Source: Polychytrium aggregatum (taxonomy: Eukaryota > Chytridiomycota > Chytridiomycetes > Polychytriales). From it: 64,000 bases of DNA. The stretch is taken from assembly GCF_025602895.1 (NCBI RefSeq), contig NW_026516203.1:248001-312000 (forward strand). The letters run 5' to 3'. Of this stretch, positions 39,508 to 61,433 are shown piece after piece (position 1 is the stretch's first letter; every line of letters starts with the position of its first letter). Under the pieces are notes generated by a model. The model made no database searches, was not told the origin of the DNA, and saw only the letters and a list, made by a program, of their open reading frames with translations. The translations under genes were made by a program, and so were the position numbers.

Positions 39508-42132
39508 TCAAAAAAATGGAGGCGTCGTCTTTTGACGCTTTCTGTTGAAGTAAGGCGGGCGCGGGATGATCGACCGCCGCCTGGGCAGCAGCGGCGGGTT
39601 GCTAGGCTTGGGCTCGGGGCCGTTTTGAAAGGGCACCACGAGGGCCGAGTCACAGCTGTGGCGGCGGCCGAGGAGCTCCATGGGCTTGTTGAAGACGTTG
39701 ATCAGGGGCTGGGCGATGGCGCTGAAGCTCTTGCGATGCGGCAGAGGGGGCCTTGGTATCGAGAAGGGGCTGGACCGCGCGCCGTTGGAGGAGCTCGAGG
39801 CGTCGTCTCTCAGCGCCCGCGGAACAGGCACACGCACTGGGGCAGTTGCGGACACAGAGCAGACGCACAGGTCAGCTCCCTGGTCGGCACAGGCGTCCGC
39901 GTGCGGCATGGGCGGTGGGTCCGTCGCGGCGGCAGATGGCTTACCCGAGTCCGTCGGGACCAGCGACGGAATCAGGCCCTTGTCGATGGCCTGGGTGAAC
40001 AGGCGGTCGACGACCTTGGTCCAGTTGGCGGCATATTCGTCCGAGCCCTTGACCATCGACCAGCCGTTGACGTCGATCACGTACGACTTGCCGTTGACGC
40101 GCAGGAGATCGAATCCACACACCGTTTGCTCAAAGGCCAGCGTCAGGCGACGGGCAATCTCGGTCTCCTCGGGGGTCAGGGCTGTGACGACGCGCTTCTC
40201 CTTGCCATCCGGGGTCCGCTCGACGACGCCGTCAATGACGGGCGATTTGCGGGTTTCGGCATGGACGTAGTGCTCGCCAACAGCATAGACCTTGACATCG
40301 ACGGCGTTGTCGGGAAACAGATACTGCTCATAGACATACGAGCCTACGGTGCGGATGCTGCAGTTTTCCGAGTGAGCGCTCGAGCGGTTCTTGACCTGGT
40401 TACGTTCCAGTATGTTGGGGGGGGGACGGCGAATGCCAGAAGGAGTGGTGGCGGTGAGAGCCAGATACGAACGGCATCAAAGCGCATTAGACAAGTCAAG
40501 AGTCGTCAGTGCGTGCGTTGGTCACCCGCCATCCAGCCGCGGCATATACCTTGCGGAAGAGCTTCTGGACGCCCTGGTTGTTTTTAAAGTAGACGTGGAC
40601 GTTATGGTCTTCCGAGTTGACGGGCTTTTCGACAAAGGGTCGACACATGGGCTCCGGCGTCAGCATGCCGTCGGCAAGGATTGGGCCGTCCTTGCTTGGC
40701 AAAGTCGAGGGCGAGAACAGCGACGATGAGACTGAAACATCCACGCCAAACTTTTCGAGGACTTCCTGGACGATATCGGCGTCGTAACTGGGGATGCTCT
40801 GCGAGCCGGCCCGATTGATGGCGATCCGGGGTACGGTCGGGATGTTGAGCGAGTCCAGGATGGCAAGAACGACACGGCGATCCAGCAGGAGATGTTGGTA
40901 CATGGGCGAGTTGAGGACGTAGGGGTTGCGCAGACGCACGTAGGCGACGGCCTTGTGGAGGGGAAAGTCCGAGGAGTGGAAGGTGATCAGGAAGTGTACA
41001 CGGGGCCAGGATTCTATCGCTGTGAGCGCGAGAGATGGCATGTGTGTGAGATTTCCGACGAGGAAAGAGTATCCAGGAAATGAAGGCCGTGGTGCCGAGG
41101 CCCGAGGGCAGGACGTCAAGTCGATGCACGAAAGGAGTGGGAATGTGGGGTCAGTGCTCCGATATGCATGGCATGGATTGTATACGCGCGGTCCTTGATC
41201 CGAGCGTCAGGATGGCCACGAGCAGGGCAGTCGGCTGGGGGGGGAGCGTCTCCTGGACAGGACTTACGCTCATTGAGGATCGTCTTTTCCGGGAAAGTGA
41301 TGATCTCATAGTTGGAAGTGTGTTCGAGATGCGACAGGAGGGTCTTCATGGATTTGGAGGTTGCTGTAGCGCCGAGTCGCAAAGGACGGGACAGCCGACG
41401 CGAGGATGTCATGAAAGGAATCGCCAGCGCGATCCAACAGGAAATATAGATAACGAGAGATGCAATCGATTAGACGCGTGGTTACGGGATGGCTCCTTCG
41501 GTAAGAGTTGATCCAGGCTCGGAACGGTCACGCAGACAATCGGTGGGACGAGCCATCGGGTCAGGATATTGGGATGTGGTGGAATGCGATGGGATATGAT
41601 CAAGTGGAGTGCGATGGGATATGATCAAGTGGAATCGACGACAAAGGCGATCGACTCTGACGCATGAGTCACAGCCGAGGGACAAGCACGCAGACCCAAG
41701 AACCCGCCAGCGCCCAGCCCGACGGGCGCAATCATCCAAGGGTTGCGCGAGTGATTCACTGGCGGAATTGCAGGAGGGTGTTGCACCCATGGCTGGACTG
41801 GCAGCCCGGACGCTGATCTGGTGATCAAGGCTGGCCGGGCTCACGGCCAGCCAGACCGTCACCCAGTGGCAGCATCCGTCTCGCTGTTCGTCTCGCCTCG
41901 CTTGACCCTCGCCGCCTGCATCTCGATCACGTCGAGAGGGAGGGTTGGGGATTCTTATTCGGCGAGGCAGCAGAAAGGGCCTGTCCTGAGTGCGGGAACG
42001 GATCGTCCGACACTGATCGGCTCTTGAGGGGGGCGGGGTGAGGTCGAATACTCTCGCAGGGATGGATTCAAGAGAGAAAGAGGGGGGGGGAGAGCTCACC
42101 TTTCTTCTCCATAGCGCAAACTCCGACCAGAT
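39508..42132 (-). CDS. VIP1: Diphosphoinositol pentakisphosphate kinase (Vip1/PPIP5K), kinase domain only; 5' exon not found
   Basis: ATP-grasp kinase that makes inositol pyrophosphates (1-PP-InsP5, InsP8) used in phosphate and stress signalling. Exons recognised: 42100-42132 (LVGVCAMEKK), 41268-41363 (ATSKSMKTLLSHLEHTS, then EIITFPEKTILNE), 40550-41019 and 39508-40395. They join in frame, giving IESWPRVHFLITF, DFPLHKAVAYVRLRNPYVLN, PFVEKPVNSEDHNVHVYF, DVKVYAVGEHYVHAETRKSP and TVCGFDLLRVNGKSYVIDVN. The catalytic lobe is complete. After it come only about 140 Pro/Ser/Arg-rich residues and a stop at 39508. The C-terminal histidine acid phosphatase-like domain (RHxDRTPKQK) found in typical Vip1 proteins is absent here and downstream. 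The acceptor before LVGVCAM shows that an earlier exon lies upstream (above 42133). Confidence 0.88.
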
Positions 42133-58524: not shown

Positions 58525-59136
58525 ATGTCGTCGCCTGCTCCAAGCAACGGCGAGGGCTCGTCCTCCTCCGGCACATCCTTCAGTGCCCTGCCGCCAAAGT
58601 GCGTCGTTTGTCTGAAGGATGCCCATTACATGTGCTCGCTTTGTGGGCCGGGATACCACTACTGCTCCTCCGAGTGCCAGACCGCCGACTGGAAGTCCCA
58701 CAAGCTCGTCTGCCGTGGCGTCAAGCGAAAGAATCAGTCTGAAACCGAGCCCCCGCCGGATCCCGAGAGCGCCCGGGTTTCGATGGAGCTGTCGGTCTCG
58801 CAGCAATCGTCGACTCATGGCGTAACATCGCTCGAACGCAGAGTCGGAAAGAAAGTGGTCGGGCGAGGCAACATTGCCCAGGTCATCAACAGCCATCCCA
58901 GCCACGGAGGTGTGTGCATGACCCCGGGGCTTGTGGTCCGTGTGATTGGGCCTGCCGCCGTTCGTACATGTTGCTATGCGCTGCCTTGAGCAGCCGATAG
59001 TAAGCCCGACCTTGAGCGGCTGATAGTATGCCTGACCTTTTGAGCGCCCTCTCATCTCCCAGATATACCAATGGATGTGCTGAACAACTCCAGCTCGCAA
59101 GATATCGACAATCAGGCATGTTCAAGGTTGCGATGA
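58525..59136 (+). CDS. MYND zinc-finger exons, probably the N-terminus of the presenilin gene
   Basis: Exon 58525-58909 opens MSSPAPSNGEGSSSSG and encodes a complete MYND finger, PKCVVCLKDAHYMCSLC then YHYCSSECQTADWKSHKLVC, with all seven Cys and the His in register. MYND domains bind proline-rich partner peptides. A GTGTGT donor joins to 59063, giving DIPMDVLNNSSSQDIDNQ. Read without further splicing, the frame stops at 59134-59136, making a 152-residue protein. However, CAG/GCATGT at 59115 (GC donor) or AG/GTTGCG at 59126 can splice to an acceptor at 59204 or 59212. Both combinations stay in frame with the presenilin Met at 59220. See the first finding. Confidence 0.75.
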
Positions 59137-59219
59137 TGTCGACTGTGTGGGAAGCATGTGCTTCACTCGGCCGGCCTCTAAACTAACCCATCGTCCGCCT
59201 CCAGCCTCCCAGTCCAACA

Positions 59220-61433
59220 ATGACCTCCAACACCGCGGCCGAACAAATCGAGGATATGATATTTTATACAAACCAAGTCTACATGATCATCAAGCCTGTT
59301 GTGGCATGCATCATCCTGGCAATGTTCTGGGTCAAGATCACACGGGTCTCCAACGACTACTACGACACCGGGTATGCATGCGCTGATGCTCACGAACACC
59401 CTCGGGCTGATGATGTCCGAGCTGTCCTCTAAACCAAGCTGGTATCCGCTGCTACTTGTTACAGAAACGAAGCTCCGTCAAGTTCATCGTACATTGACAA
59501 CTTGACGGGATCGTCTGGGTCGGACACGAGCGCAGCTGTCTTGGCCTCCCTCAAGACCGCCGGCATCTATCTCGCTCAGATCATCGGCGCCACCTTCGTG
59601 ATTGTGGCGCTCTTCAAGTACGGATGCATGAAGGTATATATTAGGCCCCATACGCCGCCATGTGACACATTACAATATGATAGCGGCCCGAGACTATAGA
59701 GGGCGATATACTCGTCTGGATAGTGGGGCACAAGCATATTTGCTCCAGGGCCACGGCTGTGCTAACAACCCATCTTGCCTCGTCCAAATGTGACCTTGAT
59801 CTGTGGAACAACCTCGGGCGATGCACACCAGATCCTATATGCAATCTTTGGAGTCATTGTCCTCGGTCTCCTCGGACTCTTTGGATACTTGCTCGGAAGC
59901 AGTTTGCTGATCGTCTACAATGTGCCGTTCGACTGGATCACTTTCGGCTTTTGTCTCTGGAATCTGGTCGTTGCCGGCCTCGCCATGATCTTCTGGAAAG
60001 GGCCGCTGTATCTGCAGCAAATCTACTTGGTCTTGATGAGTAGCATGATGGTACGCTTCAAGTAACCGCCCTGTCAATTGCGGCTTGATCGATCGATCGG
60101 CTGGAGATCGACCCGACGAAACTCTCCGCATGCCTTGATTGTAATCCAATCGTGTTTGCGCCGACGGTGTGGTCTCTCCTGACCCATATTCACGCCGATC
60201 ATTCGCACAGGCCTATTCGCTGACAACCCCGCAAACTCCCGCTCTGACTACTTGGATCCTGCTTGTGCTCCTTGCGATTTGGGGTATGTCGGATCGGTGT
60301 CCTGGATTCTACGACTCCTGAACGAACTCGCGCTGACCTCCATGCATCTGTCCATCCAAACCCTCCAGACTTGATTGCGGTGCTGTGCCCGTTTGGTCCG
60401 CTCCGTGTGCTGATAGAAACGGCCAAGAAGGAAGATCGGGAGATTCCAGCTCTGTTGTATTCAGGTATCACGGCTTGCTGCCGCAGCGCAAACGCCGCCT
60501 CTACTGTTGACGGAGCGGCTTGATCGACCAGCGGCGGGATTATGGCAGAGAGCACGCAGGCATTCCCGTGTCGCCGGCGATTTCCGACCACTGACAATGC
60601 TCGACTGCGACTTGTGTTCTTCAGTTATGGTTTGGATGATGGCCAGTCCTCCCGAGACACTGCCTTCGGAGCGGCGGCCGTCCCCAATCCAGCCGCCACA
60701 AGCCGTGCTGCACTCGGTCGACGACACCAGGTTCCTCGCCAACCCGTCGCCAAAATCCAAGTTCTCACTTTCGGAGTATGACGAGGACCGCGAGTTAACC
60801 TCTCTGCCGGTGACTGACCGATCGGAGAGACGAACTTCCCCGCTGCCGGCCGGCACCGCCCCAAGCCAAGCTCCTCGTCATGGCGAAGTAGTTGTTGAGG
60901 AAGGCGCAGAGCCCGAGAATCAGGACGAGGATGAGGAAGACGACGAGAAAAACGGCCTCAAGCTCGGTCTCGGCGATTTTGTCTTTTACAGCGTCTTGAT
61001 CGGCCGAGCAGGTGAGTTGCTGCACTTGGGAACAATCCCGATTTGTTTGGATGTTGTCGATGCTGAGCAGTGTGGTATCCACCGCCACGGGACAAGCACT
61101 GGGCGCCGACTCGCTGATGGCACTCACTCATTGCAACTCCCAAATCTGTTTCAAATGCATCCAGCGCTCTTCGACTGGATCACGACAATCGCCTGCATGG
61201 TTGCTGTCCTGACTGGCCTCAACACCACCATTTTCCTGCTGGTGATTTACCGAAGAGCGCTACCTGCGCTGCCGATCAGCATTGCCTTTGGCGTGCTGTT
61301 CTATTTCGTATCGTCGATTGTCCTGACGCCGTTCATGATCGATCTGGTGCAACTGTCCCCGCCTCCCAGCATCTCGCTGAGCAGCGCGCTGATCGTCGGC
61401 AAGGGCATGAACGGAGGCATGATATACGTATAG
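59220..61433 (+). CDS. Presenilin, intramembrane aspartyl protease
   Basis: Catalytic subunit type of gamma-secretase. Seven exons from the Met at 59220 (59220-59371, 59465-59633, 59832-60050, 60211-60283, 60369-60464, 60625-61011, 61165-61433) sum to 1365 bases, giving 454 residues, the usual size. All key sites are present. The first catalytic Asp is rebuilt across an intron (LLAIW then DLIAVLCPFGPLRVLIETA). The second is in GLKLGLGDFVFYSVLIGRA, and the PAL motif is in RRALPALPISIAFGVLFYF. TM1 is IIKPVVACIILAMFWVKIT; the FDWITFGFCLWN and IFWKGPLYLQQIYLVLMSSM blocks match presenilin TM4-TM5. A large acidic hydrophilic loop lies between the two Asp. Signal peptide peptidases are excluded by the LGLGD context and topology. 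Confidence 0.95.

Follow-up and report, generated by a model that had tools for sequence, protein, structure and literature searches.

How gamma-secretase selects its substrates is an open question, and to our knowledge its function in early-diverging fungi has been little studied. The usual motif around the first catalytic aspartate of presenilin is Tyr-Asp (YD), as given in an excerpt of PMC7768045. For the MYND zinc finger, the described domains to which we compare are those of DEAF-1, ETO (CBFA2T1) and BS69 (ZMYND11). According to the excerpted text of PMC3555993, the ligand of the ETO finger is touched by a Gln and a Trp that are also found in DEAF-1 (Gln529 and Trp533), and importance is also ascribed to a Thr/Ser position (Thr516 in DEAF-1); in BS69, a basic RRKR just after the finger is required for PXLXP ligands, with Arg560 essential, and this basic face is described there as unique to BS69. 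Introns of the GC-AG type make up less than 1% of introns in model organisms (excerpt of PMC7072748), and those of human and mouse are characterised by weaker sites and more alternative splicing (abstract of PMC7242645).

The window analysed here is a stretch of 64,000 nucleotides of Polychytrium aggregatum (C1:248001-312000), from a genome of 64.7 Mb in 418 contigs. We propose that positions 58525-61433 probably form one nine-exon gene, the product being a presenilin of 605 residues that carries a MYND finger at its N-terminus; the two parts would be joined by removal of an 89-nt GC-AG intron (Table 1).

Table 1. Features of the MYND-presenilin locus, in window coordinates
Feature	Position	Strand	Description
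Exon 1	58525..58909	+	opens with the start Met and carries the MYND finger at residues 26-63, followed by basic RGVKRK and a linker of low complexity; 3' boundary at donor GTGTGTGCAT (phase 1); basis: Pfam zf-MYND, eight C/H ligands, coding-frame preference
Intron 1	58910..59062	+	153 nt, GT-AG; donor 9.2 bits, acceptor 6.3 bits
Exon 2	59063..59115	+	53 nt; linker DIPMDVLNNSSSQDIDNQ; first codon shared with exon 1
Proposed GC-AG intron	59116..59204	+	89 nt, phase 0; CAG/GCATGT, CTAAC branch, AG 59204
Alternative GT-AG intron (preliminary description)	59127..59212	+	donor GTTGCG, 0.7 bits; link 8.2 bits
TGA	59134..59136	+	stop of the MYND frame upon intron retention (152 aa)
Upstream ORF	59156..59386	+	76 aa, out of frame, spans the presenilin ATG
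Presenilin coding region	59220..61433	+	454 aa from ATG 59220; 7 exons
Presenilin introns	59372-59464, 59634-59831, 60051-60210, 60284-60368, 60465-60624, 61012-61164	+

A complete MYND finger lies upstream of a complete presenilin

The N-terminal domain is matched by Pfam zf-MYND (PF01753) with an E-value of 7.4e-8 (32.8 bits against a cut-off of 22.7), and all eight zinc ligands of the C4-C2HC arrangement are present (C26, C29, C37, C40, C47, C51, H59 and C63). The preliminary description of this DNA had reported a complete MYND finger 5' of presenilin, as we also find, but had divided it between a pair of exons; the finger is in fact confined to exon 1, and exon 2 contributes an 18-residue linker only. 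Codon statistics in exon 1 prefer the expected frame over the five others. For exon 2, the expected frame scores -1.5 against -6.9 and -8.1 for the other forward frames, while the reverse frames score -0.5, -2.5 and -15.8, so that one of them lies slightly above the expected frame. The intron between the two exons carries CTRAY branch-type sites 27 and 39 nt before its end.

Like the fingers of DEAF-1 and ETO, the domain combines the eight zinc ligands with the Gln, Trp and Ser/Thr contact positions, which align as Gln529/Gln52, Trp533/Trp56 and Thr516/Ser38 (numbering from the excerpt of PMC3555993). With Ser38, Gln52 and Trp56 retained, we infer that the finger is a candidate peptide-binding module, although one that would be tethered to a membrane, whereas DEAF-1 and ETO are transcription regulators. 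The resemblance to BS69 lies in the basic residues that directly follow the finger (RRKR in BS69, RGVKRK here); a difference is that the finger scores under the cut-off of the Pfam ZMYND11/ZMYND8 finger model. A PxLxP sequence, which might have allowed self-binding, does not occur within the fusion protein. Among the loci compared, no MYND paralogue shares the tail, the clearest other fingers being 35-41% identical over residues 1-63; a short tail-like match at one locus (L027), with E 0.037 in a small sequence set, was judged to be chance.

The spliced fusion product matches the presenilin profile PF01080 with an E-value of 2.8e-113 and 379 bits (cut-off 34.3), residues 167-574 aligning with profile positions 3-408 of 408, and human presenilin-1 with an E-value of 4.6e-64. 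The profile match begins 15 residues past the Met at 59220. The GLGD sequence (GxGD, with a catalytic Asp) is at residue 502 and PALP (the PAL motif) at 550, and Asp356, the catalytic residue in transmembrane segment 6, is aligned with that of human presenilin-1. The full domain and these motifs are shared with PF01080 and human presenilin-1, and the protein is a putative intramembrane protease. It differs from an ordinary presenilin in its probable N-terminal MYND module and in the replacement of YD by WD. The latter, Trp-Asp in place of Tyr-Asp, is encoded at window positions 60280-60283 and 60369-60370; we took Asp, not Tyr, as the defining residue of the motif, and the Trp codon lies whole within one exon, so WD does not arise from a misreading of the splicing. 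The presenilin introns themselves were picked by eye against the human sequence.

Profile and DNA searches alike found only one presenilin locus in the genome. Genes for Aph-1, nicastrin and PEN-2 lie elsewhere, each matching over the cut-off and each on two contigs. Many genes in the assembly occur in this way on two contigs, 98.9-99.9% identical across the 12 pairs listed of 13 (for example L007/L008, L009/L010 and L085/L086), as if two haplotypes had been assembled. The presenilin stretch is found once, so its junction has no second allele for comparison.

A candidate GC-AG intron would join the two reading frames

In the preliminary description, a CTAAC and two AG acceptors (59204 and 59212) were placed just before the presenilin Met, together with two donors in the MYND exon (GC 59116 and GT 59127) that would each keep the frame open into presenilin. 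These elements are all present in the sequence, the presenilin frame is open back as far as 59187, and the two pairings (59116 with 59204, 59127 with 59212) give 605 and 606 residues respectively. If exon 2 is skipped, with the donor at 58910 joined to 59204 or to 59212, the sequence shows that the frame does not continue into presenilin; exon 2 is therefore needed for a fusion.

We scored the candidate sites with a splice-site model built from 41 introns of this genome that lie between neighbouring Pfam matches in its chaperonin and proteasome genes, a few of them uncertainly aligned (offsets of up to 12 residues), and used for comparison a set of 48 introns, that is, these 41 and seven from the MYND-presenilin locus. 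The GC donor CAG/GCATGT scores 11.3 bits when its C is scored as T, and 47 of the 48 donors in the set are lower. The set holds no GC-AG intron, 41 of its members having been found with a low GC prior and the other seven chosen by eye as GT-AG. The acceptor at 59204 scores 6.4 bits, with the branch A of CTAAC 18 nt from the intron end; for comparison, a CTRAY at 10-40 nt is found in 20 of the 48. Counting both strands, the window has 17 acceptors that score at least as high and have a branch sequence 10-25 nt before them.

Equally good GC sites are rare, with five in 127,960 positions including the donor at the junction. Codon scores over 60 nt of flanking sequence place none of the remaining four at an evident junction, and one of them (28038) is inside continuous coding sequence; GC context alone is thus insufficient to define a donor. 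We had considered taking these equal-context sites elsewhere in the window to demonstrate the use of GC-AG introns; this was unsupported and was dropped. Codon scores leave the fusion undecided in turn, because the unspliced tail (59116-59136, score -7.7) is non-coding-like and so are the 15 nt that follow AG 59204 (59205-59219, score -5.5).

The in-frame link exceeds chance by a margin that depends on the control

Another way to view the junction is to ask how often a link of the same quality appears by chance when every GT or GC donor (the latter at 1%) may pair with any frame-keeping acceptor. The best in-frame link at the locus is the GC-AG one, with T = 12.9 bits; this value is attained by 292 in a set of 20,000 random segments of equal geometry and, after dinucleotide shuffling of 59063-59219, by 89 of 5,000 sequences. 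Real introns reach it in 32 of 48 cases, although 41 of these trained the model and are favoured. In a harsher control, in which the second frame was shifted at neighbouring coding segments, 36 of 244 reach it, against 58 of 122 same-strand neighbouring segments left unshifted. The link is thus above chance by about 3-fold to about 45-fold according to the control, which is better than chance and not overwhelming, and in the shifted-frame control the statistic is not very selective.

A fusion through the GT-AG pair would have the advantage of canonical dinucleotides and an open frame, but 40 of the 41 training donors score above GTTGCG and 821 of 5,000 shuffles yield some link at least as good, which makes it hardly credible. 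Of the two donors in the preliminary description, the GTTGCG site is a poor one, and the GC-AG form of the fusion is far ahead of the GT form.

Tight spacing and an upstream ORF weigh against separate genes

A good start context surrounds the presenilin ATG at 59220 (CCAACAATG, A at -3), and the same base is found at -3 in CACC-ATG and AACC-ATG, where by our own reading two proteasome genes probably begin. This context, a presenilin domain that is whole without MYND and a proper stop that closes the unspliced MYND frame all speak for two tandem genes, namely a MYND protein of 152 residues that stops at 59136 and, from 59220 on, an ordinary presenilin, with tiny spacing or overlapping transcripts. 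Also in keeping with this, no such fusion was found in the titles and abstract starts among the matches listed from open-licence work, which is weak evidence for the earlier statement that no described presenilin with a MYND domain is known. In its presenilin, secretase and Notch passages, the excerpted text of a paper on gamma-secretase of early-diverging fungi does not mention a MYND fusion.

The arrangement would, however, require that a 3' end, a promoter and a 5' UTR be held within the 83 bases at 59137-59219 (the stop does fall just before presenilin, as had been described, but the distance had been given as 84). A presenilin mRNA begun upstream of 59156 would carry a 76-codon out-of-frame ORF over the ATG. 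Such an overlapping ORF is expected to depress translation, and a free-standing presenilin would therefore need a transcript start within 59157-59219, or another intron. Two genes would also leave a strong branch and acceptor in the gap, and a near-ideal in-frame GC donor in exon 2, to be accounted for. Elsewhere in the window, 806 bases separate the end of the guanylate kinase frame from the MYND ATG, and the eIF3c and M20 reading frames are about 3 kb apart; this intergenic comparison consists of two gaps only, in which small exons could be missed. A test of neighbour gaps over 112 kb of non-redundant loci, 34 out of 88, plus the window was not fine enough to yield an intergenic-distance distribution. 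On balance, we regard tandem genes as possible, if somewhat unlikely.

It is also conceivable that presenilin is transcribed from a start of its own and that the acceptor at 59204 or 59212 closes an intron in its 5' UTR, giving a protein without MYND. The acceptor and its CTAAC branch are convincing in their own right and stand just before a good ATG, but transcription would then need to begin within the MYND gene and before the acceptor, and the in-frame GC donor would become a coincidence; we consider this very unlikely.

The GC-AG fusion, by comparison, is the best single explanation and the best-scoring structure, as judged from the same-genome splice model, the tight spacing and the upstream-ORF argument. 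It is favoured because finger and presenilin, both above their Pfam cut-offs, would lie in one open frame; because the donor context beats nearly all donors of the comparison set and the acceptor has its CTAAC; because so few bases separate the MYND stop from the presenilin ATG; and because the overlapping ORF at 59156 would burden a separate presenilin mRNA. The presence of Aph-1, nicastrin and PEN-2 in the genome and the retained DEAF-1/ETO contact residues were also counted for it. Counted against it were the good context of the ATG at 59220 and a presenilin domain that needs nothing before it, the rarity of GC-AG introns and their absence from the 48, the poor codon scores of 59205-59219 and the shifted-frame control. 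We hold the fusion put forward in the preliminary description to be reasonably likely, with the splicing of 59116-59204 predicted from sequence.

Possible consequences of the fusion

The N-terminus of presenilin is cytosolic, which would place the finger of a fused protein beside the gamma-secretase core. There it may recruit proline-rich (PxLxP-type) substrates or adaptors by means of Ser38, Gln52, Trp56 and RGVKRK. We can further imagine the GC-AG intron acting as a switch, such that its retention would give a free 152-residue MYND protein and its removal a finger-bearing catalytic subunit of gamma-secretase, although we think this rather unlikely. Were it so, one gene would provide soluble and membrane-tethered forms of MYND, the latter recruiting substrates to the protease or competing for it.

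If real, the fusion would be a new presenilin architecture, in the sense that two known domains are newly arranged; it would not be a novel type of system. With a peptide-binding finger built into it, such a presenilin would, if the reading is true, amount to a natural experiment in covalent substrate recruitment, set in an early-diverging fungal lineage.

Further observations in the window and genome

Comparison of the presenilin and the MYND exon with viral contigs gave no match, nor did comparison of presenilin with bacterial and archaeal contigs; these searches are uninformative on fungi. An Rfam scan of the window gave nothing at gathering scores. The chitin-synthase N-terminal domain has 13 matches in the genome, contig pairs included, and the ciliary protein IFT46 has 14 exon matches, seemingly from two distinct IFT46-type genes that are each on a contig pair (C27:29770/C113:567794 and C113:168777/C405:168286). 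The joint presence of chitin synthase and IFT46 is what a flagellated (zoosporic) fungus would be expected to show. On the minus strand of the window, at 39511-41206, two adjacent frames match the PPIP5K N-terminal and RimK/ATP-grasp domains and are probably one diphosphoinositol pentakisphosphate kinase gene.
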